Under the pieces are notes generated by a model. That model ran no database searches and was not told where the DNA came from. It saw only the letters and a list, made by a program, of their open reading frames with translations. A stretch of 64,000 nt of DNA from Planctomycetota bacterium (GTDB taxonomy: Bacteria > Planctomycetota > Phycisphaerae > Tepidisphaerales > Tepidisphaeraceae): positions 1 through 64,000 of the forward strand of contig JBCDCH010000012.1 of the NCBI GenBank assembly GCA_039182125.1. The letters are read 5' to 3'. Both the position numbers and the translations under genes were made by a program. Positions 30,728-49,771 of the stretch are shown here, one piece after another (the first letter of the stretch is position 1; each line of letters begins with the position of its first letter).

Positions 30728-33046
30728 TCACGCATCGGCCAAACGGCTTACATCGTGCTCGGCGAGCGCGAGCAAGAGACGTTCACCCGTTGCAGGCAGG
30801 TCGATCCGTGCATTGCTACCGGTCGACGCGATAGCATCCTTCGCCGCGAGCCAGACGCTGAGCCCGAGCAACAACGGCGGCTCGCCGACCGCCTTGCTCC
30901 GCCGCAGCGACACGACGTTATTCGGGTTGTCGAGGAAGCGCACGTTGAGCTCCATCGGCACGTCGCTGATCGCGGGGATCTTGTACGTCGTCGGCGAGTA
31001 GCTCTTGAGCGAGCCGTCGGTGCCGTAGACGAGCTGCTCGGTCGTACACCAACCCATGCCCTGCACGAAGCCGCCGATGACCTGGCCGCGGTCGATGCCG
31101 GGGTTGATGCTCTCGCCGACGTCCATGATCAGGTCGACGCGGTCGACGACCATCTCGCCGGTTAAGCGGTCGATGGTGACCTCGCTGGCGGCAACGCCGT
31201 TGGTGAAGTAGAGGAACGGATGGCCCTTGCCGGTCTCGCGGTTGAAGTCAACGCCGGGCGTGGCGTAGAACCCACGCTCGCCGAGGCTGATGCGTTGCTC
31301 GTAGGCGGCGCGGGCCACATCACCAAATGCAATGCGGCTGTCGGGGCGGCGGGAGTCGATGGCGTGGCCATCGGCGAAGGCGATCGCAGCGGGTTCGGCG
31401 GCGAACCCGTCGTCGGCCTCAGCGAACATCGCTGCGGCGACCGGCTGCAGTCGTTCCCGTAACCGGACACACGCATCCGTCGCCGCGGCACCGTTCAGGT
31501 CCGTTCCCGCACTCGCCGCAGTCGGCGACGTGTTGTTGTTCTTGTCCGTGCTCGTCGCGGTCACCAACACATCGTCGAACGACACGCCGAGTTCATCGGC
31601 AACGATCTGCCGGATGCGCGTGTTGACGCCCTGACCCATCTCGGTCGCGCCGGTGCTGACGATCACGCTGCCGTCGAGGTAGATGTTGACCAGCGCGTTG
31701 GCCTGGTTGAGCGTGCGACGGGTGAACGAGATGCCGAACTTCACCGGCGAGACGGCCAAGCCCTTCACGTGCGTCGGCGACTCGGCGTTGAACCGCTCGA
31801 TCTCGGCCCTGCGGGCGTCGTAGTCGGACTCAGCACGAACGGCGTCGAACAGCTCGGGCAGGACGTTGTTCTGAACGAACATGCCGTAGGGCGTGACGTT
31901 GCGATCGCCTCTGTAAACATTGGCGTTTCGCACGTCGAGCGCGTCGATGCCGAGGTGGCGGGCGATGTCGTGGAGGATGTGCTCGGTCGACGCGACACCC
32001 TGCGGCCCGCCGAAGCCACGGAAGGCCGTGTTGCTCGGCAGGTTGGTCCGACACAGCCGACCGACCACACGCATGTTCGGCAGGTAGTACGCGTTGTCGG
32101 TGTGCAGCATCGCCCGCTCCAGCACGGCAAGCGAGAGGTCCGTGCTACAGCCGGCGTTGGCGAATAGCTCCACATCGAGCGCGGTGATCCGGCCGTCATC
32201 GGTGAAGCCGACGCGGTAGTTCGACTTGAACGGATGACGCTTGCCGGTGTAGCGCATGTCGTCGTCCTTGCCGTAGACGAAGCGAACGGGCTTGCCGGTT
32301 TGCCGCGCGAGCAGTGCCGCCATCATCGCCGGCGGCGCGGCCTGCGTCTCCTTCCCGCCGAACGCCCCGCCCATCCGCTTGCACGTGCAGACGACGTGAT
32401 TGAACGGGATGCCCAGCACCTCGGCGACGAGCATCTGCACCTCGGTCGTGTGCTGGGTCGAGGAGTGGATGTGCATCTGCCGTTGCTCGCCGGGGACGGC
32501 GAGGCAGGCCTGGCTTTCGAGATAGAACTGCTCTTGGCCGCCGATGTCGACGGTGCCTTCGAGGACGTGGCCGGCCTCGGCGAACCCAGCGTCGAGGTCG
32601 CCGCACTGGATGGTGCGCGGCTCGCTCAACCAGCTCTTGGCGGCAATGGCTTCGTCGATCGTCAGGATCGGATCCTCTGCGTCGACCTCCACAATCGCCG
32701 CTGCCACGGCGGCTTCCAGCGCGTCTTGCGTCTCCGCGGCGATCAGCGCGAGGGGTTGCCCGAGAAATGAAATCTCGTCCCGCACGATCAGCCATTCGTC
32801 ATGCAGCACCGGCCCGAACGCAGCCATCTCTGGCAGGTCGACGGCGGTCAGCACCGCGACGACGCCGGGCGTGTTCCGGGCGGCGGTGACGTCCAGTTTG
32901 CATATCGTGCCCTTGGCCACCGGGGCTGGCAGGATGCCGGCGATCAACTCGCCAGCCAACGGTGCCGCGTCATCGATGAACTGCGACTTGCCCGTGACGT
33001 GCGTCACCGCCGAGTCATGCGCGATGTCCTTACCGACGGCCGGCAT
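30728..33046 (-). CDS. xdhB: Xanthine dehydrogenase molybdenum subunit
   Basis: A 772-residue molybdopterin-binding subunit. CKRMGGAFGGKETQAAP (~205-221) and TAFRGFGGPQGV (~305-316) line the cofactor pocket; the Arg in FRGFGG matches the purine-binding arginine. Near the C-terminus SKAVGEPPLLLGLSVW holds the catalytic Glu of AVGEPP. Length and motifs match the XdhB type of Rhodobacter. It oxidises hypoxanthine and xanthine to urate in the cytoplasm together with XdhA. The stop of xdhA and the start of xdhB overlap by one base (TGATG). The chaperone gene xdhC is nearby on the other strand. Confidence 0.95.
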   Translation of the reverse strand: MPAVGKDIAHDSAVTHVTGKSQFIDDAAPLAGELIAGILPAPVAKGTICKLDVTAARNTPGVVAVLTAVDLPEMAAFGPVLHDEWLIVRDEISFLGQPLALIAAETQDALEAAVAAAIVEVDAEDPILTIDEAIAAKSWLSEPRTIQCGDLDAGFAEAGHVLEGTVDIGGQEQFYLESQACLAVPGEQRQMHIHSSTQHTTEVQMLVAEVLGIPFNHVVCTCKRMGGAFGGKETQAAPPAMMAALLARQTGKPVRFVYGKDDDMRYTGKRHPFKSNYRVGFTDDGRITALDVELFANAGCSTDLSLAVLERAMLHTDNAYYLPNMRVVGRLCRTNLPSNTAFRGFGGPQGVASTEHILHDIARHLGIDALDVRNANVYRGDRNVTPYGMFVQNNVLPELFDAVRAESDYDARRAEIERFNAESPTHVKGLAVSPVKFGISFTRRTLNQANALVNIYLDGSVIVSTGATEMGQGVNTRIRQIVADELGVSFDDVLVTATSTDKNNNTSPTAASAGTDLNGAAATDACVRLRERLQPVAAAMFAEADDGFAAEPAAIAFADGHAIDSRRPDSRIAFGDVARAAYEQRISLGERGFYATPGVDFNRETGKGHPFLYFTNGVAASEVTIDRLTGEMVVDRVDLIMDVGESINPGIDRGQVIGGFVQGMGWCTTEQLVYGTDGSLKSYSPTTYKIPAISDVPMELNVRFLDNPNNVVSLRRSKAVGEPPLLLGLSVWLAAKDAIASTGSNARIDLPATGERLLLALAEHDVSRLADA

Positions 33047-34461
33047 CAGGCGTACTCCTTCGCGAGCGGCAGGTCGTGGAAGAGTTTGCTGAACATGCGC
33101 TGAACGACGGTGCGGCGGTAGGTCTCGCTGCCGCGGACGTCGGTCATCGGCGTGACTTCGTCGCGGGCCACCTCGCCGGCGGCTTCGAAGGTCTCGAGCG
33201 TCGCCGACTTGCCGATCAGTGCGGCCTCGGTCTCCCGCAGCCGCAGGATCGTCGGCCCGACGCCGCCGAAGGCGATGCGGATGTCGTCGATCGTGTCGCC
33301 GTCGAGCGTGATGCGAAACGCCGCGGAAACACTGGAGATATCGAGGTCCTTGCGACGCGAGACCTTGTAGCAGCGGAGCGTTTGATCGGCGGTGAGCAAC
33401 GGAATGCGGACGGCGGTGACGAGTTCGCCGGGCCGTAGATCGCAGACGCGATAGTCGGTGTGGAAGTCCTCGACCGAAACGCTGCGACGGCCGGTCGGTC
33501 CGGCGATTTCGACGATCGCTTCGAGCGCGACCAGCGGCCCGGCGGTGTCGCCGATGGGCGAGGCGGTGACGAGGTTCCCCGCAAGCGTCGCCCCGTTCTT
33601 GATCGGCGGCGAGCCGAACCAGGCGAGGTACTCGCTGAAGTTGGGCAGGTGCTCGGCGGTGATGAGTTCGAGTTCGGTCAACGTTGCTGCGGCCCCGACG
33701 ACAAGTTGGTTACCCTCGACAGAGATGCCACCCAGTTCGTCGATGCCCGCGATGCTCAGCGCGGTCTTCACCCGCTGATACCGCTTGTTTTCGAGGACGC
33801 CCCAATCGGTGCCGCCAGCGATGATCGTCGCATCGTCGTGCTCGGCGAGGAAGGCAGTCGCGTCCTCGATGGTCGTTGGTTTGCAAGCACGGCGGCTGCC
33901 ATCGGTCAGGTCGAAGCCGTCCGTCGGCAATGCGTCGACCACCGCATCGGGCGGGTACATCTCGTCGAGCGTTCGCAGCTGCTCCCGATCGACGGCCATC
34001 CCCGCTCGCACGATTGAGTCGTACCCTGTGCATCGGCAGAGGTTGCCGACCAAGCCACGCCTCAGCGCGTGTGCATCGCACGGCTGCCGCAGCGTGTCGG
34101 TCATCGCCACGACAAAGCCCGGCGTGCAGAAGCCGCACTGCGTGCCCTGGCATTTGACCAGAGCGTCCTGAATCGGACTGAGTTCATCGCCGGGCGTGAG
34201 GCCTTCGACGGTGACGATGTGCGTCGCGTCGAGTTGCAGCATCAACGCGATACAGGACGTCACCGTCGTGTACCGCATCTCGCCATCGACCGGCCGGCCG
34301 ATGAACACACTGCACGACCCACAGTCCCCCTCGGCACAAACAACCTTCGTCCCCGGCAGCCCGCGTCGTTTGCGGAGGAACGTCGCCAGCGGCAGGAACA
34401 CGTCAGCCCCGCGCACCTCGACGGGTCGGCCGTTGATCATGAGTCGGAGGTGGTCACGCAT
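33046..34461 (-). CDS. xdhA: Xanthine dehydrogenase iron-sulfur/FAD subunit
   Basis: A 471-residue subunit. The N-terminal [2Fe-2S] domain has C42, C47 and C50 in VCAEGDCGSCSVFIG. The second cluster domain has CQGTQCGFCTPGFV and LVGNLCRCTGYD. From ~190 an FAD-binding domain of the CoxM/XdhA type follows (DATIIAGGTDWGVLENKR, PIKNGATLAGNLVTASPIGD). It passes electrons from the molybdenum site to NAD. I prefer the ATG at 34461, eight bases inside the end of the guanine deaminase gene, over a TTG at 34470. The whole layout matches two-subunit bacterial XDH. Confidence 0.95.
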   Translation of the reverse strand: MRDHLRLMINGRPVEVRGADVFLPLATFLRKRRGLPGTKVVCAEGDCGSCSVFIGRPVDGEMRYTTVTSCIALMLQLDATHIVTVEGLTPGDELSPIQDALVKCQGTQCGFCTPGFVVAMTDTLRQPCDAHALRRGLVGNLCRCTGYDSIVRAGMAVDREQLRTLDEMYPPDAVVDALPTDGFDLTDGSRRACKPTTIEDATAFLAEHDDATIIAGGTDWGVLENKRYQRVKTALSIAGIDELGGISVEGNQLVVGAAATLTELELITAEHLPNFSEYLAWFGSPPIKNGATLAGNLVTASPIGDTAGPLVALEAIVEIAGPTGRRSVSVEDFHTDYRVCDLRPGELVTAVRIPLLTADQTLRCYKVSRRKDLDISSVSAAFRITLDGDTIDDIRIAFGGVGPTILRLRETEAALIGKSATLETFEAAGEVARDEVTPMTDVRGSETYRRTVVQRMFSKLFHDLPLAKEYA

Positions 34462-35689
34462 CTCGGTCAAACTTCGTTTCTCCGTTGATCGTCACGCGGT
34501 TAACCGTCGAGGCCGGGTCATCCATGTCGGCTGGCAAAAGCGAACTGATCACCGAGTCGGTGTCAGCACCGGAGCCCGCGACCTCGATGAACGACATCGG
34601 GCGCCCGACCTCCAGTCGCCCCACGCCATCGACCAATCCTAACAAGTCGGCCGGGGCGCGTGTTGCACGAAACAGCGCTTCCGCATGGTTCGCATGTGGC
34701 GAGTCGTGGACGGTCAAGAACCGTTTCATTTCCGCCAACATCGACACAGTCGGCGAGGCACCGACGTCGGTCGCGATGGCGTACGGCAAGCCGCGGCGTT
34801 TCACTTCGTCCAGCGGCATCACGTTGCTACCGAGCTTGAGGTTGCTTGTGGGACAGTGGGCGATCGTGCTGCCGGTGTCGGTGAGGATGCCCCACTCGGG
34901 CTCGGTCATCTCGATGCAATGCGCAACGATGCAGTCGTGCTCCAGCAGGCCGTCACGGCGGTAGACGTCGGTGTAGCTGTCGGCGTCGGGGTACAGCTCG
35001 CGCTCGACGAACTGCTTTTCGGCGACCTGTTCGTTGAGGTGCGTCTGCGTGCGGAGGCCGAAGCGTTCGGCGAGGGCAGCGCCGCGGCGGCGCAGGTCGC
35101 TGCTCGTCGCGACGGCGAAGCGGTCGGTGATGATGAGCCGGCGACCGAAACGCTTGGCGATGCGCTCGACATCGGCGTCGAGGTTGGCCTCGTCAGTGCG
35201 CAGATCCTCCGGGCAGTTCTGATTCATCAGCACCAGGCCGACGCTCCACGTCTCGGGCAGAATCTCCAGTGCGACCTCCGTCGCAGCGGCGGACGAGGTC
35301 ATGTAAGCCGCGCCGCCGACGACGCCATGGGCGAGCGTGTCGGCGAGAAACTCGCGCGTGACCGCCTCGGTGACGGCGCGGTCGTTGCAATTGATCTCCG
35401 CTGGAAAGACGTTTTTCTTCAACCCGGCGAGCAACTGACCCTCCGGTGCGTCGGCCGGCACGCCCTTTACGAAGTCGCCACGGATCGGGTGCTGGGGGAT
35501 GTGGATATGGATGTCGAGCAGTGGCGGGAGCATGACGCCGTTGCTGCTTCGGTGCGGGACGTCAATGGGAGGGCCGACGTGGGTAAGCCGGCCGTGTTCG
35601 TCGGCGACGAGCATGCCGTCGGCGTAAAAGGTGACGGTGCCGTCGGCTTCGGGGACAAGCAGCGGGCCGCGAACGGCTTCAGGGTTCAT
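34454..35689 (-). CDS. guaD: Guanine deaminase
   Basis: A 411-residue amidohydrolase. LPPLLDIHIHIPQHPIRGD gives the metal-binding His61 and His63; the PQHP continuation is characteristic of guanine deaminases. Further ligands are likely in LRTQTHLNEQ (His), AHCIEMTEPE (His) and ATDVGASPTVSML (Asp). It converts guanine to xanthine, feeding xanthine dehydrogenase directly downstream. The ATG at 35689 overlaps the allantoinase stop (ATGA). A cytosine-deaminase-like activity is a less likely alternative given the neighbours. Confidence 0.9.
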   Translation of the reverse strand: MNPEAVRGPLLVPEADGTVTFYADGMLVADEHGRLTHVGPPIDVPHRSSNGVMLPPLLDIHIHIPQHPIRGDFVKGVPADAPEGQLLAGLKKNVFPAEINCNDRAVTEAVTREFLADTLAHGVVGGAAYMTSSAAATEVALEILPETWSVGLVLMNQNCPEDLRTDEANLDADVERIAKRFGRRLIITDRFAVATSSDLRRRGAALAERFGLRTQTHLNEQVAEKQFVERELYPDADSYTDVYRRDGLLEHDCIVAHCIEMTEPEWGILTDTGSTIAHCPTSNLKLGSNVMPLDEVKRRGLPYAIATDVGASPTVSMLAEMKRFLTVHDSPHANHAEALFRATRAPADLLGLVDGVGRLEVGRPMSFIEVAGSGADTDSVISSLLPADMDDPASTVNRVTINGETKFDRDA

Positions 35690-37020
35690 GACAACCTCCA
35701 CGGTGTAAGCAGCTTGCCGCACGGGTCGGCGATGATGTTGCCGTCGAGATACATGGTGACGCCACGGAGGATCGTGCGGCGGGTGAGTCCTGCGAACGTG
35801 CGGTCGACGTAGGGGTTGGCACGATGCCGGTCGAGCAACATTCCGGCCGTGAGTTCGTACGGCTCGGACAGGTCAACTAGCGCAAGGTCGGCGTCGAAAC
35901 CATCAGCGATTTGGCCTTTGTTTTCAATGCGAAAGCGGTCGGCAACGTTGGCCGCGGTAAGGTTCGCAATGGCGTCGAGCTTGAGCGCCGGCTCGCCGCT
36001 GAGCAACACCGATCGCGTCGATTGCACGCCGGCGATCCCACCCCACACCTTGAACGGATCGTCGGCGTCTTTCATGGCCGGCGGACAGGGCGAATGGTCA
36101 GAAGCGACGAACGCGAAACGATCGCCGCCGAGGTCCTCCCAAAGCTGGGCGGCCGCGTCGGCGTTACGCAGCGGCGGTGCGCACTTGAGCGATGCACCGC
36201 GCTCGACCAGATCGTCCTCGGTGAACGCGAGGTAGTGCGGGCAGGTTTCGCAAGTGACATCGACGCCATCGGCGCGCGCTTGCTGCACCAACTCGATGGC
36301 ATATGGCACGCTCACATGCACGATGTGCAGCCGGCAGCCGGTGTCCTTCGCAAGCGCGAGCGCTTCCTGTACCGCGACCACTTCCAGCAGTGGTGGACGG
36401 CTTTTCAAATAGGTTTCCCAATCGCGTTGCGGTGCCGCATCCGCGCGCTCACGCAGCGCGACCGCCGTCTCCTGCCGTTCGGCGTGGACCGCGACGAGCG
36501 CGTCGTGTTCGGCGGCGATCTCCATTCCTTTCCGCAGGGTGTCAAGATCGGCGTAGGCGAAGTCATCGATGCCAGTGTCGCACATGAACGCCTTGAAGCC
36601 GACGACGCCGCGCTCGATCAAGGCGGGCATGTTGTCGAGATTGTTCGGCGTGAGCCCGCCCCAGAGGCCGAAGTCTGCGACGCTCTTCTCCGCGGCCAGT
36701 GCGGCTTTTGCGTCAAACGCATCGACGTCGAGCACCGGCGTGGAGTTGAGCGGCATGTCGAAGAACACCGTCCCCCCGCCAGCTGTCAGCGCCGCGCTAC
36801 CGGTAGCGAAGCCTTCCCATTCCGTGCGCCCTGGCTCGTTGAAGTGGACGTGCGGGTCGATCAGTCCGGGGAAGACATGGAGTCCGGTCGCGTCGATCTC
36901 ATCACGCGCATCGGCCGAGTCGAAGCCAACGATACGACCGCCGTCGATCGCGAGATCGGCCTCGCGCACGCCGGTTGGCGTGACGAGTTGGCCGCCGCGA
37001 ATGAGCAAATCGATTGGCAT
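35686..37020 (-). CDS. allB: Allantoinase
   Basis: A 444-residue cyclic amidohydrolase. FPGLIDPHVHFNEPGRTEWEG (~50-70) holds His57 and His59 and is the classic AllB signature. Lys143 in VGFKAFMCDTG is the carbamylated metal-bridging lysine. Other ligands are likely in VHAERQE, LHIVHVS and ASDHSPCPP. It opens the allantoin ring to allantoate in the cytoplasm. The start overlaps the HIU hydrolase stop by one base (TGATG). Dihydropyrimidinase is a relative, but the NEPGRTEWEGF motif and the urate genes upstream favour allantoinase. Confidence 0.94.
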   Translation of the reverse strand: MPIDLLIRGGQLVTPTGVREADLAIDGGRIVGFDSADARDEIDATGLHVFPGLIDPHVHFNEPGRTEWEGFATGSAALTAGGGTVFFDMPLNSTPVLDVDAFDAKAALAAEKSVADFGLWGGLTPNNLDNMPALIERGVVGFKAFMCDTGIDDFAYADLDTLRKGMEIAAEHDALVAVHAERQETAVALRERADAAPQRDWETYLKSRPPLLEVVAVQEALALAKDTGCRLHIVHVSVPYAIELVQQARADGVDVTCETCPHYLAFTEDDLVERGASLKCAPPLRNADAAAQLWEDLGGDRFAFVASDHSPCPPAMKDADDPFKVWGGIAGVQSTRSVLLSGEPALKLDAIANLTAANVADRFRIENKGQIADGFDADLALVDLSEPYELTAGMLLDRHRANPYVDRTFAGLTRRTILRGVTMYLDGNIIADPCGKLLTPWRLS

Positions 37021-37367
37021 CAGCTACCCCGGTAAGTCGAATACGACCACGGCGACACCAGCAGCGGCACATGGTAGTGAGCATCGGGATCGTCCACGAC
37101 AAACAGGATCGGCACGCGGTCGAGAAAACGTCCCGCGTCGGCATGGCCGCGGCTACGAAAATAGTCGGCGACGTGAAACAACAGCCGATACGTTCCCGGT
37201 CCAAGCTGGGTCAACAGCGGACCATCGGCGCGGCCGTCGTCGTTGAGCGTCACGTCGGCGAGCCGCTCGCGCTCGCTGCCGCCGACGCGTTCAAGCGTCA
37301 CACGCATGCCGGGTGCCGGCGTGCCGTGGGCGGTGTCGAGGACGTGGGTGGTGAGCTTGCCGGGCAT
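37020..37367 (-). CDS. pucM: 5-hydroxyisourate hydrolase (transthyretin-like)
   Basis: A 115-residue transthyretin-related protein. His8 in [11 protein letters not shown], an Arg in the central strands and the C-terminal YRGS (112-115) are the active-site signature of 5-hydroxyisourate hydrolases. The C-terminus is the family's defining tetrapeptide. It converts 5-hydroxyisourate, the product of uricase, to OHCU. The ATG at 37367 is chosen because the conserved domain begins there; the gene starts two bases after uricase ends. Confidence 0.95.
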
Positions 37368-37369
37368 GG

Positions 37370-38221
37370 TCAATCCCCCCGCGTCACGGTGCCGGTGATC
37401 AGGCCATATGGCTCGTCGGTCGCCATGAAAATCTCGTTGTCGTTGGTCAGACCGAACGGATCGAGGTTCATCGGAATGCGGTGCTGATTGGGCATCTCGA
37501 GGCCGATCTCCTCGATCGCCGGGCACGCGTCGAGCACATCGCGGCCCATCTGCAGCAGCGTCTGCTGCACCGCGAGGCTGTGGTGGCCAGCGAATACTTT
37601 CAGTAAAGCCCGCTTGGCGTTTTCGTACGTCGTGCCGAACTCGACGTGATGGTCGGCGATCCGCCAGGTCGCGTCGACGGTCGTGGCGAAGATGCGATCG
37701 TGGGCGTCGGCAAGGGTGCGGTAGCGATCGTCGACGAACGTGTGAAACTCCGACGCTGTGGTCTTGAGCACGAGCAGGCCAGCGACGCCGCCCATGACGA
37801 TCGGGTCGCCCCCTGTTTCGTCATCGCCGCTGAGCACAACGGTGCAGGTGCGCGTGTCGCTGCCGCCGTTGGTGAAGGCGTGATCGTGATCGTCGATGCG
37901 TGTCCAGTTGGACTGCTCGATCGACACCGTTGCGTCGGTGACCTGGTCGTAGGTGTCGACGAAGTGACGAGCGAGGATGATCGCGAACGCCTCGGGCTCG
38001 GTGAAGTCGTGTTCCTTGGCGAGGACGTAGACGGTGTTCTTGATCGAGTCGGTCGCGACGACGGCGCTGTTGTCGCCGGTCTCGTAGCTGGCGTCGAACG
38101 CGCCCTCCAGGCTGACCTCGACGGCGAACTCGAGCAGGTCGTGACGCGACCCGTTGCGGATCACCTTGGTCATGCGGACCCGGCTCTTGCCGTAGCTGTT
38201 GCTCGTGAGTTGGTGCGGCAT
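37370..38221 (-). CDS. pucL: Urate oxidase (uricase)
   Basis: A 283-residue cofactor-free uricase with two tunnelling-fold repeats. [12 protein letters not shown] (~9-20) contains the catalytic Lys12; [16 protein letters not shown] contains the Thr of the catalytic dyad and the urate-binding Asp. The second half has [28 protein letters not shown] and [11 protein letters not shown], where the His and Asn contact substrate and oxygen. It oxidises urate to 5-hydroxyisourate with release of hydrogen peroxide. No catalase gene lies in this cluster. Its start overlaps the previous stop by one base; a GTG three bases upstream is an alternative. Confidence 0.95.
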
Positions 38222-39906
38222 CACTCAAGGGTCCACACCAGATCGGCCAAACGCAAGCGGGCAATCTTCGCAATCTCCGCCAGTGCCGTTCGACGCTCCG
38301 TCTCGGCGTCGTTGGCGAGGCGTTCAGGGAACGCGTCGAGGATGGCGTCCTTCCGATTCTCGCGGGCGCAGATGACGAACGGGAAGCCGAACTTGTTGCG
38401 ATAGTCGGCGTTGAACCGGTCGAAGGCGTCGGCCTCGTCGGCGGTGAGTTGGTCGAGGCCGGCGGCTTTCTGCTCGTCGGTGCTCTCGGCGGTGAGTCGG
38501 CCGGCCTTGGCGAGCTTGCCGACGAGGTCGGGGTGGGCGCAGATGAGATCGAGCTGTTCGTCCTGCGTCGCGGCGTCGACGACGGCGATCATCTTCGCGT
38601 GCAGGTCATCGACGTTCGCGAACGGTCGCGTGTCCCACGCACGCTCGGCGATCCATGGCGAGTGCTCGAAGATGCCGCCAAGCGTCTGCGTGAAACGCTC
38701 GCGGGTCATGCCGTTGAGCTGCGCGATCGTCGGCCGACGCACGGCCCGCTCGACCACCGCCGCGGCTTCGGCAATGTCCTCGACGCGCGAAAACTCGGCG
38801 GGGTTGTGACTGATCCCGTCGCGGCTCGGTACGAACAGCATCGCCGTCGGCAAGTGCGGCGCGAGAACGGCCGCGTCGTGCAACGCGCCACTCATCACGC
38901 GGGGCAGGTCGCCCGCGAGCTGGTCAACCAACGCCGGGTGCATCGGCCGTGCAGGAATCGCCTCGGTCTGCTCGATCGCGATGAAGGTGCGCCGGGCGTT
39001 GGCGATGTCGGTGAGCCGCGTGCGCAGTTGCTTGTCGCCGGTTTCGAGTTGCGCGTCGTCCGGGGCGCGAAAGTCGATCGTGAACTCGACGCGGTCGGGG
39101 ATGACATTCACCGCATTGGGTTTCACCTCGAACCGCCCCACCGTCATCACGGCCTGCTCGGACAAAGTCGGTGCAAGCTGTTCCAACGCGTTGACCATCT
39201 CCGACGCGGCGCAGAGCGCATCGCGACGATCGGACATCGCCGTCGCACCGGCGTGGTTCGCCTCGCCCTCGAGGCTGACGCGGTACTGGAAGCGGCCGGC
39301 GATGGACTCGACGATGGCGATGCGCTGATCGCGCCGCCACATGCCCGGCCCCTGCTCGACGTGTAGCTCGATGAGGCCAAGGTGGTCGTGCAGCTTCGTC
39401 AGCTCTCCGGCGTACGGCTTGCACGCGTCGACGTACGTTTCGCCGGCGGCGTTACGGTAGAGGCAGAGGTTGTCGGCGGTGAGCTCGCCGACGAGTGCGC
39501 GACTGCCAAGCATGCCCATGCCGAAGGTCGGGCCTTCTTCCTCGGCGAAGACGACGAGCTCAACGGGGACGGCGACGTCGTCGTCAGCCGCTGCACGGAG
39601 CAGTTCGAGGCCGACGACCACACCGGCGACGCCGTCGTAGTCGCCGCCATGGGGGACGGTGTCGAGGTGGGAGCCGACTAGCCAAGCCGGTTCGTCCGGC
39701 TCGAGCTTGCCGCAGCGGCAAAAAAGGTTGCCGGCCGAGTCGCGGCGGACGACGCAGCCGAGCTTGGTCGCTTCGTTGGCGATGTACGCGACGGCGTCGC
39801 CCCACTCTTTCGAGAACGTCGGCCGGGTCGCACCCGCACCGGGGGTTTGTGTGATGGCCGCGATCGTCTCGATGTCGCGGCGGAGTCTGTCGGTTTGGAT
39901 CGGCAT
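38221..39906 (-). CDS. allC-uraD: Fused allantoate amidohydrolase and OHCU decarboxylase
   Basis: A 561-residue bifunctional enzyme. Residues 1-~392 are an M20-family amidohydrolase of the allantoate/ureidoglycolate type: metal ligands are likely H80 and D91 (GSHLDTVPHGGDYDG), E123 (AEEEGPTFG), H182 (IELHVEQGP) and H367 (DGISHNPAEFS). Residues ~395-561 are the OHCU decarboxylase UraD, with H415 in IFEHSPWIAERAW and the HPDL motif (458-461). The decarboxylase makes S-allantoin from OHCU; the amidohydrolase works two steps later on allantoate. The frame is continuous with no stop between the domains. The start is the ATG at 39906, after a palindromic repeat. Confidence 0.92.
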   Translation of the reverse strand: MPIQTDRLRRDIETIAAITQTPGAGATRPTFSKEWGDAVAYIANEATKLGCVVRRDSAGNLFCRCGKLEPDEPAWLVGSHLDTVPHGGDYDGVAGVVVGLELLRAAADDDVAVPVELVVFAEEEGPTFGMGMLGSRALVGELTADNLCLYRNAAGETYVDACKPYAGELTKLHDHLGLIELHVEQGPGMWRRDQRIAIVESIAGRFQYRVSLEGEANHAGATAMSDRRDALCAASEMVNALEQLAPTLSEQAVMTVGRFEVKPNAVNVIPDRVEFTIDFRAPDDAQLETGDKQLRTRLTDIANARRTFIAIEQTEAIPARPMHPALVDQLAGDLPRVMSGALHDAAVLAPHLPTAMLFVPSRDGISHNPAEFSRVEDIAEAAAVVERAVRRPTIAQLNGMTRERFTQTLGGIFEHSPWIAERAWDTRPFANVDDLHAKMIAVVDAATQDEQLDLICAHPDLVGKLAKAGRLTAESTDEQKAAGLDQLTADEADAFDRFNADYRNKFGFPFVICARENRKDAILDAFPERLANDAETERRTALAEIAKIARLRLADLVWTLE

Positions 39907-39950: not shown

Positions 39951-40919
39951 TCACTTTCCGAACTGCTCGCGCCACTTCTCGCCGGTCTTCTCCATCGTGC
40001 TCTCCGCGTGTGTCCGGCGCAGGCGGTGCAACTGCGGCATGCCCAACGCCCACTCCTGCATCCAGTCCCGCGCGAACACGCCGGCTTCGGTCTCGTCGAA
40101 GATCTTCTTGATCTCCTCCTCGTTGATCACGCGCGGGCCGCGCGTGCGGATGGCGAACTCGGCGGTGCGACTGCAGCCGTTGGTGAGATACTCCTCGATG
40201 CCGGCCTCGTCCATGACGTCGATGACGCTGCGGATCGAGCGGATGGCCTTGGCGTAGGCGAAGCTCGGCGGGTAGCCGGCGTCGACCATGGTGTCGAAGC
40301 ACGCCCGCATGAGCGCGATGGTGCCGCCGTAGAGGATTTGCTCCTCAAAGTTGTCGCCCTCGGTCTCGTGCTGGAAGGTCATCTCGACGACGCCGGCGCG
40401 GGTGGAGCCGACGGCCTTGCTGACCGCGAGGACGATCGGCAGCGCGTCGCCGGTGTAGTCCTGATCAACCGACACGCAGCCGTAGACGCCCTCGCCGTCG
40501 AGGTACTTCTGGCGGACGAACTTGCCGGGCGCGTTGGGGACGAACAGCACGACGTTCACGTCCGTCGGCGGCGTGATCTGGCCGTAGAGCACGGAGAAAC
40601 CGTGGCAGAAGCAGAGCGTTTGCCCGGACTTGAGGTGCGGCTTGATCTCGGCCTCGTACACCTTCGGCTGCACCGGGTCGGCCAGCTCGATGAGAATCAC
40701 GTCGGCGTGCCGAACCGCGTCGGAGATCGGCATGGCGGTGAACCCGTCGGCCGTCGCCGCATCACGCGAACCGGTCGTGCCGATGATGACGTTGCAGCCG
40801 GAGTCCTTCGCGTTGGCGGCCTGCGCTTTGCCCTGAATCCCGTAGCCGAGCACGGCCACGGTCTTGCCATCGAGCACGGAAAGGTCGACGTCGTCGTCTC
40901 GGTAGATTTTTTCTAGCAT
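39951..40919 (-). CDS. Ketol-acid reductoisomerase-like oxidoreductase with altered active site
   Basis: A 322-residue protein that aligns along most of its length with class I ketol-acid reductoisomerase (IlvC). The Rossmann motif is VLGYGIQGKAQAANAKDSG (~24-42), followed by CFCHGFSVLYGQI with His106. Of the metal ligands, Asp189 and Glu193 (ETEGDNFEEQ) and Ser250 (NGCSRTAEF) are kept. By alignment from memory the active-site Lys is Asn129 (VPNAPGK) and the two second-domain glutamates are Lys224 and Ser228 (AYAKAIRSIR). It is therefore unlikely to make branched-chain amino acid precursors. It lies inside the ureide operon, between the GntR regulator and allC-uraD. NAD(P)-linked oxidation or reduction of a ureide such as ureidoglycolate is a plausible role. 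Confidence 0.75.
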   Translation of the reverse strand: MLEKIYRDDDVDLSVLDGKTVAVLGYGIQGKAQAANAKDSGCNVIIGTTGSRDAATADGFTAMPISDAVRHADVILIELADPVQPKVYEAEIKPHLKSGQTLCFCHGFSVLYGQITPPTDVNVVLFVPNAPGKFVRQKYLDGEGVYGCVSVDQDYTGDALPIVLAVSKAVGSTRAGVVEMTFQHETEGDNFEEQILYGGTIALMRACFDTMVDAGYPPSFAYAKAIRSIRSVIDVMDEAGIEEYLTNGCSRTAEFAIRTRGPRVINEEEIKKIFDETEAGVFARDWMQEWALGMPQLHRLRRTHAESTMEKTGEKWREQFGK

Positions 40920-40929
40920 AGCTGCTCGC

Positions 40930-41736
40930 TCAAAGGTCCAAGAGGAATGCGACTTCTTTGTTTTGATCCTCTGCCGCATCAAGGTGGCGTTCCATCTCGG
41001 CCTCGGCTCGTGCTTCGTCACCATCTACGATGGCTTGATAGATTGCCTGGTGTTCTGCGTGGATTCCCGCACCTCGGTCTTTCGTCTGATGCTGCTGCCG
41101 AAGATAAGTCGTTACTTCCGATGCCCGTCGTCCACCAACAACCGTCTGCTCAAGGGTGATTTCCACCAGTAAGGCAAGCACTTCGGACGAGAGGCGAGCA
41201 ATCTCGGTATGAAACGCGATGTCAACTTCGATGTAGCTGCCAGCGCCGCCCGGGCCGTCTAGGGCAAAATCTAGACAAGACCAGACCTCCTCCATGCGTT
41301 GTCGGGCGATCGGTGATGAGCGGCACGCGAAGGCCGCTTTCTTCGCCCGGTTAGGCTCGATCATGCGTCGCGCATCAAATATCTGCTCTCTGTCTTTCGA
41401 AGTCAGCCGCCGCGGTCTTGCGCTACCGCCACTGCTGCGCTCGATTAAGCGACGGCCGGACAAAATAGTCAAAGCCTCGCGAAGTGGCCGTCTGGAAAAC
41501 TCGTCGGCAGATCGACGCCCCCGTTCAGGTGGGAGCCTGTCGAGATCTGCTCGAAGTTGCGTTCGATAGTGCTTTTTCAGCAGCTTTTCAAGCAGTGCGG
41601 CTTCAGACAACGGGCTTCCACAACGCCAATGCCCTTCAAAAATGCTCCTCTTGAGGTACCGGGCGTAGGCTTCTGCAGGTGTTTTCGGGGCGATGTTGGG
41701 CGCATGGATTGGCCCTGAAGGCGTCAGTAGCGACAT
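40930..41736 (-). CDS. GntR-family (FadR/FCD) regulator with an insertion in the DNA-binding domain
   Basis: A 268-residue regulator with the FCD ligand domain in its C-terminal half (FDARRMIEPNRAKKAAF, DIAFHTEIARLSSEVL, EHQAIYQAIVDGDEARAEAEMERHL). The N-terminal winged helix-turn-helix is recognisable at GHWRCGSPLSEAALLEKL and SRRPLREALTILSGRRLIERS. Between the two halves, where relatives run on directly (…LAERFGVSRTPVREAL), there is a basic insertion of about 25 residues. The reading frame is clean. Encoded between the ureidoglycine hydrolase and IlvC-like genes, it probably controls this operon; FCD-domain regulators often sense small carboxylic acids. A TGAGGA ribosome site precedes the ATG at 41736. 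Confidence 0.8.
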   Translation of the reverse strand: MSLLTPSGPIHAPNIAPKTPAEAYARYLKRSIFEGHWRCGSPLSEAALLEKLLKKHYRTQLRADLDRLPPERGRRSADEFSRRPLREALTILSGRRLIERSSGGSARPRRLTSKDREQIFDARRMIEPNRAKKAAFACRSSPIARQRMEEVWSCLDFALDGPGGAGSYIEVDIAFHTEIARLSSEVLALLVEITLEQTVVGGRRASEVTTYLRQQHQTKDRGAGIHAEHQAIYQAIVDGDEARAEAEMERHLDAAEDQNKEVAFLLDL

Positions 41737-41751
41737 TTCCTCAGATTAGTC

Positions 41752-42162
41752 TCAGCCAACTCGGGGAACAAGAAGAATGTGGACGGCGCTAATCTTGGGG
41801 ATTGTGCACAATGCAACGCGATTTTGCTTCCAGCAAGCGGGGCAATTCTCTACCGTTGAGCACACCGCCTCCATTCCCCGAACGGAGTGAACATGCAGTG
41901 CAAGCAAATCCTGGTTACCGAGGTCGCGAAGTGCCGCAACGTCGGGGTCGCAATTGGCCGCCCGACTTGGCCTTCCGATCAAACCATCACTTTTCTTGGT
42001 GCTCTTGTGCGCATCAAGGGAGACGGTGCTATCACAAAGGGTAGAGCAATGCTGCTCGAGGGCGTTCTTATCGAAGCCTCCGGCCTTGAAGTTGATGGTT
42101 ATCACCAACTCATCGTGACCAATATCGAGAGCTCCATCGTTCCCTCGGGGTGATACGGTCAA
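41752..42162 (-). CDS. Doubtful hypothetical ORF (competes with an ORF on the other strand)
   Basis: A possible 136-residue protein starting at a TTG that overlaps the ureidoglycine hydrolase stop (TTGA), a coupling style common in this window. I recognise no domain, and it has several scattered cysteines. Its codon use is less GC-rich at third positions than neighbouring genes. On the opposite strand, 41893-42153 encodes an 86-residue frame from ATG (MQCKQILVTEVAKCRN...) that looks equally or more protein-like. At most one is real. The ~420-base stretch between the GntR and ureidoglycine hydrolase genes may equally be non-coding or acquired DNA. Confidence 0.25.
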   Translation of the reverse strand: MTVSPRGNDGALDIGHDELVITINFKAGGFDKNALEQHCSTLCDSTVSLDAHKSTKKSDGLIGRPSRAANCDPDVAALRDLGNQDLLALHVHSVRGMEAVCSTVENCPACWKQNRVALCTIPKISAVHILLVPRVG

Positions 42163-42893
42163 CGGTACAGAAGTCGGACTTCCCGATTTACGTTTTTGTA
42201 GTACAGGTACCGCGTCGGCGTTGGGCCGGTGGCGTAGTAGCTTTGCGGGCAGAACGGGGCCATGTAGATGTAGTCGTGCTGTTCAACTTCCATCCAGTCG
42301 CCGTCGAGGTAGTACATGCCTTTGCCGTCGAGGAGGTAGAGGCCGTGCTCCATGACGTGGGTTTCGACAATGGGCAGGCCGTGGCCGGGGGAGAAGGTGA
42401 AGATGTTCATCGCCATGTCGAAGGCGAAGTCGGGCGGGATGAGCTCCTGCAGCAGCGCGTCGGGGTTGCCTTCCCAGACGGTCTTCTCGACGTCGTCGAC
42501 ATGGCCGGCGAGCGCGGCGAAGGGTTCGATGTTGGGCGCGGGTTCGTAACGTTTGCGGAGGACGAGCAACTGTGTGTCGATTTCGGCCTCGAACTCGACC
42601 GGCGTATCCGGGCCGATGAGGCCGAAACTGCCAGGGCGGAGGTCGCCGCTGCCGGCCATGGCGTAGTAGAACGTCTCGATGCCCGGCTCGTCGGCGAAGC
42701 GTCCGCTCGTCCCGGCCGGCATGTCGATCAGGTACTGGACAAACTCCGCCCCAAGCGCCGGCGATGCGAGCACCCGCACTACCGCCTCGGGAAACCCCGG
42801 CAACCGTGACGGCGGAAACCCTTCCAACGGCATTAGCGCGTACCGACGCCCGACACGGGTTCGAGCATACACAAGTGATTCGATCGGACGCAT
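42159..42893 (-). CDS. allE: (S)-ureidoglycine aminohydrolase
   Basis: A 244-residue bicupin. The C-terminal cupin has GLPIVETHVMEHGLYLLDGKGMYYLDG, whose Glu and His residues, with a later Gln in FCPQSYYA, match the manganese ligands of ureidoglycine aminohydrolase. The N-terminal cupin (PAGTSGRFADEPGIETFYYAMAGSGDL) lacks a full metal set, as usual for this family. It releases ammonia from ureidoglycine, the product of allantoate amidohydrolase, to give ureidoglycolate. The ATG at 42893 is selected because the family's YARTRVGRRYALMPLEG opening follows; a longer upstream frame overlaps xdhC antisense. It is the first gene of the minus-strand purine operon, divergent from xdhC. Confidence 0.92.
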   Translation of the reverse strand: MRPIESLVYARTRVGRRYALMPLEGFPPSRLPGFPEAVVRVLASPALGAEFVQYLIDMPAGTSGRFADEPGIETFYYAMAGSGDLRPGSFGLIGPDTPVEFEAEIDTQLLVLRKRYEPAPNIEPFAALAGHVDDVEKTVWEGNPDALLQELIPPDFAFDMAMNIFTFSPGHGLPIVETHVMEHGLYLLDGKGMYYLDGDWMEVEQHDYIYMAPFCPQSYYATGPTPTRYLYYKNVNREVRLLYR

Positions 42894-42965: not shown

Positions 42966-43880
42966 GTGTTGGAGCTTTTGGACGAGATCGTAACACGGAC
43001 GGCGGCGGGTGAGGTCGTCGGCGTCTGCATGGTCGCGTCGACGCGGGGCAGCACGCCGCAGAAGGCCGGGGCGTTGATGCTCGTGCTCGAAAGCGGCCAG
43101 ACGCTCGGCACGCTCGGCGGTGGCTGCGTCGAGGCCGAGGTCCGCACGCGGGCCCAGGAACTCATGCACCGCCGCGAGAGCAAGACGCTGGAGTTCAAGC
43201 TCGACGGCGACGTCGGCAGCGGCTGGGACGACGGGCTGGTCTGCGGCGGAACGATGCGAATCGCGGTGGAAACGGTGACGGAAGCAGCGGTGTTTCGCAG
43301 TGTTGCGGAGGCGGTGAAGCGCGCCGAGCCGGCAACCCTGACGGTGGTCGACGCCGAGCACACGTTCGAGCCAAGACCGAGCTTGGTGATCGCAGGGGCC
43401 GGGCACGTCGGGCAAGCCCTCGCCGCGATCGCGGGGCCTGCCGGCTTCGACGTCACCGTCGTCGACGACCGCCCGGGCTGTGCAAGTGAGCAACGCTTTC
43501 CCGACGCCACACGCATCGTCGGCGACATCGAGTGCGAACTGCGAGGCCTGCCGATTCACGCCAACACGTTCGTCGTCATCGTCACCCGCGGCCATCGCCA
43601 CGACGCCGACGCCCTCGCCGCAGTCGTCGACAAACCCGCCAAGTACGTCGGACTCATCGGTTCGAAGCGGAAGATCCTCACCATTCTGCGACAACTCCAC
43701 GGCAACGGCGTCGACGCCGACACGCTCGCCAAGGTCCACGCCCCGATCGGGCTGAGCATCGGAGCGATCACGCCTGAAGAAATTGCCATCAGCATCGCCG
43801 CCGAACTCGTCGCCATCCGCCGAGCCCCAACGGACATCGGCCGTCCGCTGAAACTCGATCCCAAGCTCGCAACACGTTAA
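42966..43880 (+). CDS. xdhC: XdhC-family molybdenum-cofactor chaperone
   Basis: A 304-residue protein. The N-terminal XdhC/CoxI domain has CMVASTRGSTPQKAGALMLV and LGTLGGGCVEAEV (the GGGCVE motif). A C-terminal Rossmann domain follows (LVIAGAGHVGQALA ~141-154, IVTRGHRHDADAL, YVGLIGSKRK). XdhC proteins bind, sulfurate and insert the molybdenum cofactor into xanthine dehydrogenase. It starts at a GTG (42966), 72 bases from the divergent ureidoglycine hydrolase gene, so both probably share a control region. It is the only plus-strand gene of the purine cluster. Confidence 0.93.
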   Translation: MLELLDEIVTRTAAGEVVGVCMVASTRGSTPQKAGALMLVLESGQTLGTLGGGCVEAEVRTRAQELMHRRESKTLEFKLDGDVGSGWDDGLVCGGTMRIAVETVTEAAVFRSVAEAVKRAEPATLTVVDAEHTFEPRPSLVIAGAGHVGQALAAIAGPAGFDVTVVDDRPGCASEQRFPDATRIVGDIECELRGLPIHANTFVVIVTRGHRHDADALAAVVDKPAKYVGLIGSKRKILTILRQLHGNGVDADTLAKVHAPIGLSIGAITPEEIAISIAAELVAIRRAPTDIGRPLKLDPKLATR

Positions 43881-44237: not shown

Positions 44238-45557
44238 TCAGACTTTGCGGGTGTCCGCCGGGTACGTCGCTTCCATCGGCGTGAGCACGAGATCGTCGGG
44301 CAACGGCAAATCGCCTCCGTGACGCAACGGGTCGTTTGTGCGTGCCATCCGTGCAGCCAATCGTTCACGGAAGTCTGCCGCGACGGACTCGAAACTCTCG
44401 TCATTAAGGACATTGCGCAGGCAGTATGGATCGTTAACCAGGTCGTACAGCGACTCCGCCGGCGGTGGGTTGTCTGCCCAACCACGTTCGATCATCGCCT
44501 GACGAGTTGGCCCGGGATCACAGTTGGGCAGGACGCGACGCGCCAACTTGCCGAAGTGACGGATGTACAGGTAGTCACCGACCCGTACCGACCGCATCGG
44601 CTCGGCCGCCGCGTGGAAGTTCACCTCACCGAATGTCGCATCGTGCAGACGATCCACCTCCCCACGCAACAGCGGCAACAGCGAACGGCCGTCGAGATCG
44701 TCCGGCATCTCTTGCCCGAGCAGATGCAACACGGTCGGTACCACGTCCAAGTGCGTGACCGTCGCGCCGGTCCGCCGACCGCCTCCGATCCCGGGCCCAC
44801 GCAACATGAGCAACACCCCGGTCCCCCCCGGCGTAAGTCGACTCTTGTAGTTCGGGAACGGCACGCCGTGATCAGTGGTGCAAATCAGAAGCGTGCTCTC
44901 AAAGTCAACCGCGTCCAAGACCCGGCCCACGCATTCATCCAACCGATCCAGCGCGACGTTGTAGTCGGCGATGTCCTGTCGCACTTCGGGCAGATCCGGA
45001 AGGTCTGGCGGCACGATCACGTCCACCGGATTGCCAAGCGGCGAGGCTTCGGCGTTGAATCGCTGGTCGGTCCGTCCCGCGGTGCGGTGGGTCGTGAAGA
45101 GGCCGCACGCGAGGAAGAACGGCTTGTCGTGTTCACGCCGAAGGTAGTCCGATGCCGCATCGGCGATCGCCGGGTCGGCGTCGGCAACGTCGTCCACACC
45201 AGGTTCGGCCAGCACCTCGTCGTAGGGCATGTCCGCCTCGGCCGTGCCCTTGAACTCATGCTGTACACCGGACAATGCGGTTGCGTAGCCAAGATCGCGT
45301 AGCAGACTCGCAAGGTGTCGACTCGGGTCGCGCAGTCGCGCGCCGCGGTGGGCCAGACCGATCATTCCGTTCTTGCGCGGCATCTGGCCGGTCAGTAGGC
45401 ACGCACGACTCGGCGAGCACGTCGGGCTCGGCGTGTGTGCGTCTTCGAACAGGACGCCGTCGGTGGCGAGTCGTGTGAAGTTGGGCGTCGGATGCGGATG
45501 ACCGTACGGTTCGATCCAGCGACCGGTGTCGTGGCTGTGCAGGTAGACGATGTTCAT
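44238..45557 (-). CDS. Sulfatase, no signal peptide (rhamnoside operon)
   Basis: A 439-residue type I sulfatase. C47-S-P-S-R51 in TPSPTCSPSRACLLTGQMP is the formylglycine motif. The first residues MNIVYLHSHDTGRW give the metal-binding Asp/His, and LLICTTDHGVPFPNYKS the second metal pair. There is no signal peptide, so it should act in the cytoplasm on imported sulfated oligosaccharides. The ATG at 45557 overlaps the GH78 stop (ATGA), which excludes the longer upstream start. It is the last gene of the 57221-44238 operon. The C-terminus (~400-439) is short compared with polysaccharide sulfatases, as expected for enzymes acting on small sugars. Confidence 0.93.
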   Translation of the reverse strand: MNIVYLHSHDTGRWIEPYGHPHPTPNFTRLATDGVLFEDAHTPSPTCSPSRACLLTGQMPRKNGMIGLAHRGARLRDPSRHLASLLRDLGYATALSGVQHEFKGTAEADMPYDEVLAEPGVDDVADADPAIADAASDYLRREHDKPFFLACGLFTTHRTAGRTDQRFNAEASPLGNPVDVIVPPDLPDLPEVRQDIADYNVALDRLDECVGRVLDAVDFESTLLICTTDHGVPFPNYKSRLTPGGTGVLLMLRGPGIGGGRRTGATVTHLDVVPTVLHLLGQEMPDDLDGRSLLPLLRGEVDRLHDATFGEVNFHAAAEPMRSVRVGDYLYIRHFGKLARRVLPNCDPGPTRQAMIERGWADNPPPAESLYDLVNDPYCLRNVLNDESFESVAADFRERLAARMARTNDPLRHGGDLPLPDDLVLTPMEATYPADTRKV

Positions 45558-48316: not shown

Positions 48317-48635
48317 GGTGAAACACCTCTGTGAGCGGCGTCATCGCCTTGTCCGCCGCACCCTCGTCCAGTGGTTCGAAGTAGTCGATCATCGCCGCCT
48401 GCCAGCGGGCGTTGATCGCCTCGTCCTGCATGCCCGCGACGGCCGCGGCGAAGTCCGGCGTCTCGACGTAGCCGATGAGCAGCCCGTCGTCGCGCAGGAA
48501 AAGCGTGTAATTGTGCCAGCCGTGGCGGCTCAGTGCGTCGCGCATCTCCTGCCACACCTCGGTGTGGGCAGCGCGATAGGCGCCAACTCTGTCGGGGCGG
48601 ACGTTGAGTGTAAAGCAGACGCGTTGGCGGTTCAT
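48309..48635 (-). CDS. rhaM: L-rhamnose mutarotase (RhaM-like)
   Basis: A 108-residue dimeric alpha-beta-barrel protein. VCFTLNVRPDRVGAYRAAHTEVWQEMRDALSRHGWHNYTLFLRDDGLLIGYVE carries the family's conserved His (AAHTEVW), the GWHNYTLF strand and the acidic tail FEPLDEGA. It interconverts the alpha and beta anomers of L-rhamnose (or a related 6-deoxyhexose). Its place directly beside GH78 supports rhamnose as the released sugar. It starts at 48635, overlapping the DUF1961 stop (ATGA). The enzymes for rhamnose isomerisation and phosphorylation are not in this window. Confidence 0.88.
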   Translation of the reverse strand: MNRQRVCFTLNVRPDRVGAYRAAHTEVWQEMRDALSRHGWHNYTLFLRDDGLLIGYVETPDFAAAVAGMQDEAINARWQAAMIDYFEPLDEGAADKAMTPLTEVFHLD

Positions 48636-49771
48636 GGGCGTAGCTCGGTGATGGTCAGGTCGTCGTAGCGGGCACGGGTCCATTGCATTTGCCGCAAGCC
48701 GAAGCGTCCGCCGGTCGGATCGCCGAGCGATGCAGACATCACCACGCGCTCGTCGGCAAGAAGCCACATCGCGTCCCGGTCGCGGATCAGCCGCATGCGA
48801 ACCGGTGCATCGCCGATCGGGAAGGCGGGCGCAATCGCCCGCAGGATCAGGCCAGAGTTCTCGCGCAGGTTCAGCATCCCGCGACCCGGTTCGTGCGGCG
48901 GTTGGGCGAAGTAGGAGACGTGCATCGAGTCCAACGGGCCCGCGGTGTAGTCGTTGAAAGTCCCGTCGCGCTGCGGCAGGCGCGGGTCCATCAGATCGGT
49001 GATGCCGACAAGACGGGGGCGGGCGTCGAAGAAGATGATCGCGAGGCCGGTTTCGCTTCGGAGGGTGAAGGTCCAGTCGACGACATAGGTGCCGGGCAGA
49101 GTCGGCGGGAGCCAAATGGTGCCGTGGCCGTGATCGGGCCGCTGGGCGTCGGGCTTGGTGGACTCGATGAGTAGTTCACCGTCGGCCGCGTTCAGCTTTA
49201 GCGGCCCTTCGATCACCCAATCTCCGGGCGTTTGGTCCAAGCTGTTGGCGTAAAGCACCTCGCCGAGTCGGTGGGTCAGGTCCGGAACCGGTGGCTGTTC
49301 GACACCGAGAATGCCGCGCAGCTGTGACCCGGCGGGTGACGGTTCCAAGGTCGCGGACCAACCATCAGGTAAATCGCCAACCACGTCCGCTCCATCCGCT
49401 GTCACGGCTTTCCAGGCGTCGGTATCCCCGCCGTGAACCAGCACGCCGCCGACGCGCATGTGAATGCTGCCCTCTTCGGCGTCCCAAGACCACGCGAACG
49501 TCACCGGCTCATCGGCCGGTAGCACCGGGAGCATCACCAACGACGGCGGGCCGGCCACTCCCTCGGCCCACTGCCACTCGACGACCAAGTGCCGACGATC
49601 GTACCGCAAGACCGCCCGCCCCACCCCCGGTCGCTCGGCCAGCGTGTGACGCGCCGTTTCCAACTCGCCCGCTTGCAATGGCTCATCGAGACGCAGCGTG
49701 ACGTGAAACTCATCTCCTCGCGTCACCGTCGAGAACAACAGCACGACCAGCATCGCACACGTCCATCTCAT
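48632..49771 (-). CDS. Exported DUF1961-family protein
   Basis: A 379-residue secreted protein with a signal peptide (MRWTCAMLVVLLFSTVTRG). Residues ~165-379 (LGEVLYANSLDQTPGDWVIEGPLKLNAADGELLIES, DWTFTLRSETGLAIIFFDA, GRFGLRQMQWTRARYDDLTI) form a concanavalin-like jelly-roll of the DUF1961 type, usual in planctomycete and Bacteroidetes polysaccharide loci. The first ~150 residues form an extra beta domain. Function is not established; glycan binding or a lyase/hydrolase activity is likely. It is coupled by ATGA overlaps to both neighbours, so it is a regular member of the rhamnoside operon. Confidence 0.78.
   Translation of the reverse strand: MRWTCAMLVVLLFSTVTRGDEFHVTLRLDEPLQAGELETARHTLAERPGVGRAVLRYDRRHLVVEWQWAEGVAGPPSLVMLPVLPADEPVTFAWSWDAEEGSIHMRVGGVLVHGGDTDAWKAVTADGADVVGDLPDGWSATLEPSPAGSQLRGILGVEQPPVPDLTHRLGEVLYANSLDQTPGDWVIEGPLKLNAADGELLIESTKPDAQRPDHGHGTIWLPPTLPGTYVVDWTFTLRSETGLAIIFFDARPRLVGITDLMDPRLPQRDGTFNDYTAGPLDSMHVSYFAQPPHEPGRGMLNLRENSGLILRAIAPAFPIGDAPVRMRLIRDRDAMWLLADERVVMSASLGDPTGGRFGLRQMQWTRARYDDLTITELRP

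Follow-up and report, generated by a model that had tools for sequence, protein, structure and literature searches.

A ketol-acid reductoisomerase-like family with a replaced metal site in bacterial purine operons, a candidate (S)-ureidoglycolate dehydrogenase

Class I ketol-acid reductoisomerases (KARIs) hold one magnesium ion, Mg(I), by D191/E195 and another, Mg(II), by D191/E227/E231 (Sac-KARI numbering, PMC5940873). Their alkyl shift is Mg-dependent, and the reductase, which can be measured apart from the isomerase, accepts various 2-keto acids (PMC5940873). In E. coli, ureidoglycolate is oxidised to oxalurate, from which AllFGH and carbamate kinase lead to oxamate and carbamoyl phosphate (PMC11326118). 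Here we describe a KARI-like protein encoded in a planctomycete purine operon, which may connect these two systems.

The gene lies at 39951..40919 on the reverse strand of the window, by which we mean the whole stretch of 64,000 nucleotides analysed, and reads from an ATG at 40919 into a product of 322 aa. The protein is a descendant of KARI: it matches PF07991 (KARI_N, 184 bits) and PF01450 (KARI_C, 107 bits) far over cutoff, can be aligned over its full length with class I KARIs of solved structure (best E 2.5e-88), and passes the ilvC model TIGR00465 (290.7 vs 226 bits), with PRK05479 within 1 bit. Only KARI models were matched in the Pfam and NCBIfam scan, with no match to the AllD model. 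In the alignment to the solved KARIs, Asn129 occupies the position of the catalytic Lys (K130 of the P. aeruginosa enzyme), and Lys224 and Ser228 stand where the two Glu ligands of Mg(II) would be; the Mg(I) ligands Asp189 and Glu193 are retained, as are His106, Ser250 and the nucleotide-binding region. The same three losses and the same retained residues, together with the nucleotide-binding loop, had been read by hand in the initial annotation, and the alignment agrees with it at every one of them. Further changes specific to the clade are L to N190, G to E192, C to Y197, H to R227, K to R230 and D to R251. The nucleotide-binding loop varies between members, and cofactor preference is not readable from it. 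An AlphaFold2 model of the monomer (mean pLDDT 67.7) is confident in the Rossmann domain only, and much of the C-domain scores under 50, which is what an intertwined dimer would lead one to expect.

The gene is embedded in a reverse-strand series of purine genes. The stop codon of a GntR/FCD-type transcriptional regulator (40930..41736, Pfam GntR and FCD) falls 10 bp ahead of its start, and beyond the regulator lies AllE, (S)-ureidoglycine aminohydrolase (42159..42893; TIGR03214 over cutoff, 242.9 vs 200 bits). Downstream is a fusion of AllC (allantoate amidohydrolase) with UraD (OHCU decarboxylase) at 38221..39906, which carries Peptidase_M20 and OHCU_decarbox domains and has allantoate amidohydrolase and TIGR03164 (UHCUDC) as its best NCBIfam models. 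It is followed by urate oxidase (37370..38224, TIGR03383), hydroxyisourate hydrolase UraH (37020..37367, TIGR02962, with the second Met of the ORF taken as start) and allantoinase AllB (35686..37020, TIGR03178), each over cutoff, then by a guanine deaminase-like amidohydrolase (34454..35722; Amidohydro_1, best NCBIfam model guanine deaminase, under cutoff), the FeS/FAD small subunit of xanthine dehydrogenase (33046..34470; best model TIGR02963, 419 vs a cutoff of 467 bits) and its molybdopterin subunit (30728..33046; TIGR02965 over cutoff). Divergent from allE, on the forward strand, is an XdhC-like maturation factor (42966..43880), named by eye, whose tblastn homologues flank several KARI-like operons. 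The setting described initially, with the GntR regulator upstream and AllC-UraD downstream, is thus confirmed, with AllE beyond the regulator. Beside the purine operon, at 44238-51171 on the reverse strand, we noted by eye sulfatase, alpha-L-rhamnosidase-like, L-rhamnose mutarotase-like and sialate esterase-like genes, possibly a rhamnose or sulfated polysaccharide cluster.

The window genome (4.13 Mb, scored 100% complete) was searched with KARI_C, which identified two places: the KARI-like gene and, on a different contig (G000:C30:29150), a complete ilvC with all canonical residues, the K/E/E set included. A second ilvC, on which the initial annotation had made its proposal depend, is therefore present in the same genome.

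Our peptide-pattern scan of 84,980 species genomes brought up 22 KARI-like loci. Of these, 21 have 71-76% identity and a Bacillota locus has 59%; below that nothing appears until 44%, the level at which ordinary ilvC starts. Whole-genome searches added two planctomycetes and a second Bacillota genome. The family is found in Planctomycetota, Verrucomicrobiota, Spirochaetota and Bacillota, and it is rare, being encoded in 8 of the 397 sampled genomes of the window's class and in 1/392 sampled genomes of its phylum, the window genome included. Maximum-likelihood analysis groups all 25 KARI-like sequences into a single clade with support of 100/100, set apart by a stem of 2.0 changes per site; where exactly it attaches is unsure because a divergent archaeal row (L070) raises a long-branch flag. 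The phylogenetic placement that had been proposed as a check hence yields a separate, fully supported clade. Nine changed positions are invariant across the 25 sequences (N129, N190, E192, Y197, K224, R227, S228, R230 and R251), so that the equivalents of Sac-KARI E227 and E231 are K224 and S228 in every member, and the Mg(I) ligands Asp189 and Glu193 are invariant as well. K/E/E at positions 129/224/228 was found in 15 of the 16 canonical rows, the exception being L070, where position 129 is Arg and position 228 Ser. This Bathyarchaeota homologue (L070:2114-3106(+)), in which the catalytic Lys is replaced by Arg alongside other active-site changes, lies beside a P-type ATPase-like gene and is a second divergent KARI, unrelated to the clade described here. 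A degenerate pseudogene, or chance, is ruled out for the KARI-like protein by its strong conservation. Among open-licence papers, a search for links between KARI (ilvC) and allantoin, allantoate or ureidoglycolate retrieved nothing on this family.

AllE and/or AllC is encoded on the same strand in all 25 loci outside the window, usually within 100 bp. AllE lies at most 140 bp from the KARI-like gene in 21 of them and AllC at most 0.8 kb away in 23; the two loci with no nearby AllC are L019, where the contig stops just past the gene, and L007, on a short contig with no AllC on it. The commonest gene order is allE-KARI-allC-uraD-uox-uraH-allB, and not one of the ten other operon genes, allantoin genes included, was found at any of the 52 canonical ilvC loci of the same scan (mostly Bacillaceae). 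The linkage, which the initial annotation had suggested surveying, is accordingly conserved across four phyla. Across phyla, with the Bacillota excluded, the KARI-like protein is 71-76% identical, typically about 72%, compared with 41-63% for AllE and 40-60% for AllC. In six Phycisphaerae operons (L003, L006, L008, L010, L096 and L097) an adenine deaminase-like gene, recognised by eye, stands directly upstream of allE, and adenine entry may belong to the same unit there.

To see how ureidoglycolate could be consumed, 23 KARI-like-bearing genomes were searched for known enzymes. AllA was not detected in any of them, and no AllD was found over cutoff (496 bits), the best hits of that family being distant at 154 bits in the window genome and 308 bits in any genome (spirochaete G019, where by eye the neighbours are not purine genes); single absences are weak since many of these genomes are incomplete MAGs, but the window genome is scored complete. 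AllG was found in 1/23 genomes, the same spirochaete, and urease alpha in 6/23, with neither in the window genome. Carbamate kinase is over cutoff in every one of the six spirochaetes and in the two Bacillota members; the planctomycete and verrucomicrobial KARI-like genomes, the window genome included, gave no such hit. In G019, AllG adjoins a CoA-ligase-like protein consistent with AllF, and in G020 carbamate kinase shares a contig with the KARI-like operon. In a spirochaete AllG cluster (L103:2399-6654(-)) a putative cyclase-family gene (PF04199) adjoins AllG and could act in oxamate or oxalurate metabolism. A PucG-like aminotransferase was rejected as a general source of oxalurate, with good matches in only 5/26 KARI-like genomes and none in the window genome. 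It is conceivable that an M20-family ureidoglycolate amidohydrolase elsewhere in the genome consumes ureidoglycolate.

The explanation that we favour, with a probability of roughly 0.6, is that the KARI-like protein is an NAD(P)-dependent (S)-ureidoglycolate dehydrogenase that arose from class I KARI with loss of alkyl migration. AllC would convert allantoate to ureidoglycine and AllE ureidoglycine to (S)-ureidoglycolate, from whose C2 the KARI-like enzyme would take a hydride to give oxalurate, in reverse of the 2-keto-acid reduction by KARI. Without the Lys and the two Mg(II) Glu ligands, the isomerase is predicted to be lost and hydride transfer retained, and Lys224, Arg227 and Arg251 may take the place of Mg(II) in holding the substrate carboxylate. 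By our own derivation, (S)-ureidoglycolate is spatially congruent at C2 with (2R)-2,3-dihydroxyisovalerate, the product of KARI, so that its oxidation would be the geometric reverse of the second KARI half-reaction. Oxalurate is an N-substituted oxamate, as is the KARI inhibitor IpOHA. Oxalurate is the most economical product given the E. coli branch and the downstream genes of Bacillota and a spirochaete; substrate, product and direction are all argued from genomic context and chemistry. The position beside the ureidoglycolate-forming enzyme, with AllA and close AllD undetected, supports a dehydrogenase, as does the retention of canonical ilvC. Against it, the fate of oxalurate is unexplained in the window genome, which is devoid of AllG, carbamate kinase and urease alpha, and gcvPA-gcvPB next to the genes of one Bacillota locus (L023) would fit glycine as the end product. 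The initial annotation had offered a ureide-handling oxidoreductase or, more narrowly, a new ureidoglycolate dehydrogenase: the former is strongly supported by the changed residues, the canonical ilvC and the four-phylum linkage, and the latter is the best-supported function, with no user of oxalurate recognised in the window genome.

In the Bacillota, one genome (G922) encodes the KARI-like protein, AllC, AllE, an ATCase-like transcarbamylase and carbamate kinase (TIGR00746 over cutoff) on one contig, where AllE stands next to the transcarbamylase, and in the other KARI-like Bacillota genome AllE adjoins a 79%-identical transcarbamylase on another contig. Two genomes of the Bacillota sample (G887 and G1076) combine the transcarbamylase with AllE and a protein resembling AllA, and the stretches read from them contain no KARI-like gene; the KARI-like search range covered G887, with no listed match, and G1076 may lie outside the sample. 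These transcarbamylases (L098:7249-8262(-), L132:8349-9431(+), L144:9848-10858(+) and L145:9761-10762(+)), for which linkage was seen to AllE and to carbamate kinase or AllC, resemble pseudo-ATCase subgroup 2 (PMC4016543) and carry HSLP, with G-C-S/R replacing the ATCase RxQ motif; the family is a candidate single-gene oxamate transcarbamylase. Since allantoate is phosphorolysed by a related pseudo-ATCase of Rubrobacter (PMC4016543), the transcarbamylase by itself is no proof of oxalurate, and its pairing with carbamate kinase is weakened as such proof too. The Rubrobacter subgroup has the motifs HPLA and AIA/AIS/SIA, unlike the Bacillota proteins, and AllC is encoded in both KARI-like Bacillota genomes, so that oxamate stays plausible. 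Transcarbamylase with carbamate kinase in the Bacillota, and AllG in the one spirochaete, thus suggest an oxamate branch in these lineages.

Other functions have to be weighed against the same observations. The broad reductase activity of KARI on 2-keto acids (PMC5940873) would suit a reductase of glyoxylate, hydroxypyruvate or tartronate semialdehyde that handles the carbon left after ureidoglycolate breakdown, and an AGXT2-like aminotransferase was seen by eye in the region of a verrucomicrobial locus (L016); this is unlikely nonetheless, as the lyase AllA was found in 0/23 genomes and urease alpha in only 6/23, and the gene is placed between allE and allC rather than among glyoxylate genes. 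We also find doubtful, and slightly more so, a reductive branch in which the enzyme would act on an N-carbamoyl imine arising from either ureidoglycolate or ureidoglycine. Its reduction would give N-carbamoylglycine, to be split to glycine by a carbamoylase or transcarbamylase; in the Bacillota this split would yield carbamoyl phosphate and ATP, and the glycine would feed glycine cleavage. That KARIs can reduce an imine-type substrate is illustrated by Streptomyces IlvC, which shows P5C reductase activity in vivo (PMC4353338). At L023, gcvPA-gcvPB is next downstream, with RidA-like repeats farther downstream (by eye), and the branch needs no AllFGH, carbamate kinase or urease, which most KARI-like genomes do not have. 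It does not, however, need the conserved linkage to AllE, the product of which is a defined hydroxy acid; spending reductant is unusual in aerobes, and to our knowledge purine breakdown offers no precedent for such a branch. If it were true, the allantoin route would end in glycine, not in glyoxylate or oxamate.

The loss of catalytic residues and the tight linkage to allE and allC could also describe a degenerate, non-catalytic regulator or scaffold for AllE and AllC, yet this is very improbable for a protein more conserved across phyla than either of them (Bacillota aside) and in which the His, Asp and Glu are invariant and the nucleotide-binding loop is kept. Hardly credible at all is a functional second branched-chain reductoisomerase placed in the operon by chance: its passing of a standard ilvC model is outweighed by the replacement of the Lys and both Mg(II) Glu in 25/25 members, by the canonical ilvC, and by the lack of any linkage to ilv genes at the loci seen.

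Should the ureidoglycolate dehydrogenase assignment be true, it would fill a hole in the purine catabolism of those Planctomycetota, Verrucomicrobiota, Spirochaetota and Bacillota for which metagenomes are the main source of knowledge, add a second, unrelated family performing the AllD reaction, and provide a clear example from nature in which removal of one metal site turned a two-metal isomeroreductase into a plain dehydrogenase. Because the clade passes the standard ilvC model, its members would be named ketol-acid reductoisomerases, and the signature N129, K224, S228 and R251 would then let existing annotations be corrected.

Compared with the AllD-AllFGH-carbamate kinase branch of E. coli, some KARI-like genomes are similar in having AllG or a transcarbamylase with carbamate kinase, whereas most planctomycete members, the window genome included, do not have the genes of that branch. 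Ureidoglycolate lyase (AllA/DAL3, EC 4.3.2.3) acts on the same intermediate but belongs to a urea-releasing lyase family. AllD belongs to the L-sulfolactate dehydrogenase-like family; the proposed NAD(P)-dependent reaction from (S)-ureidoglycolate to oxalurate, alongside AllC and AllE, is the same, but fold and family are unrelated to those of the KARI-like protein. The promiscuous IlvC of Streptomyces likewise puts the KARI scaffold to work on another 2-oxo or imine substrate, although this is a side activity of true KARIs and not that of a clade with a rebuilt metal site in a catabolic operon (PMC4353338). With class I KARI (IlvC, EC 1.1.1.86) the protein shares about 40% identity over its full length, the two-domain architecture, the nucleotide-binding loop, His106, the Mg(I) ligands Asp189/Glu193 and Ser250; it differs in having Asn for the catalytic Lys and Lys and Ser for the Mg(II) Glu ligands, in N190/E192/Y197/R227/R230/R251, in forming a separate clade on a long stem, and in being linked to allE and allC instead of ilv genes.
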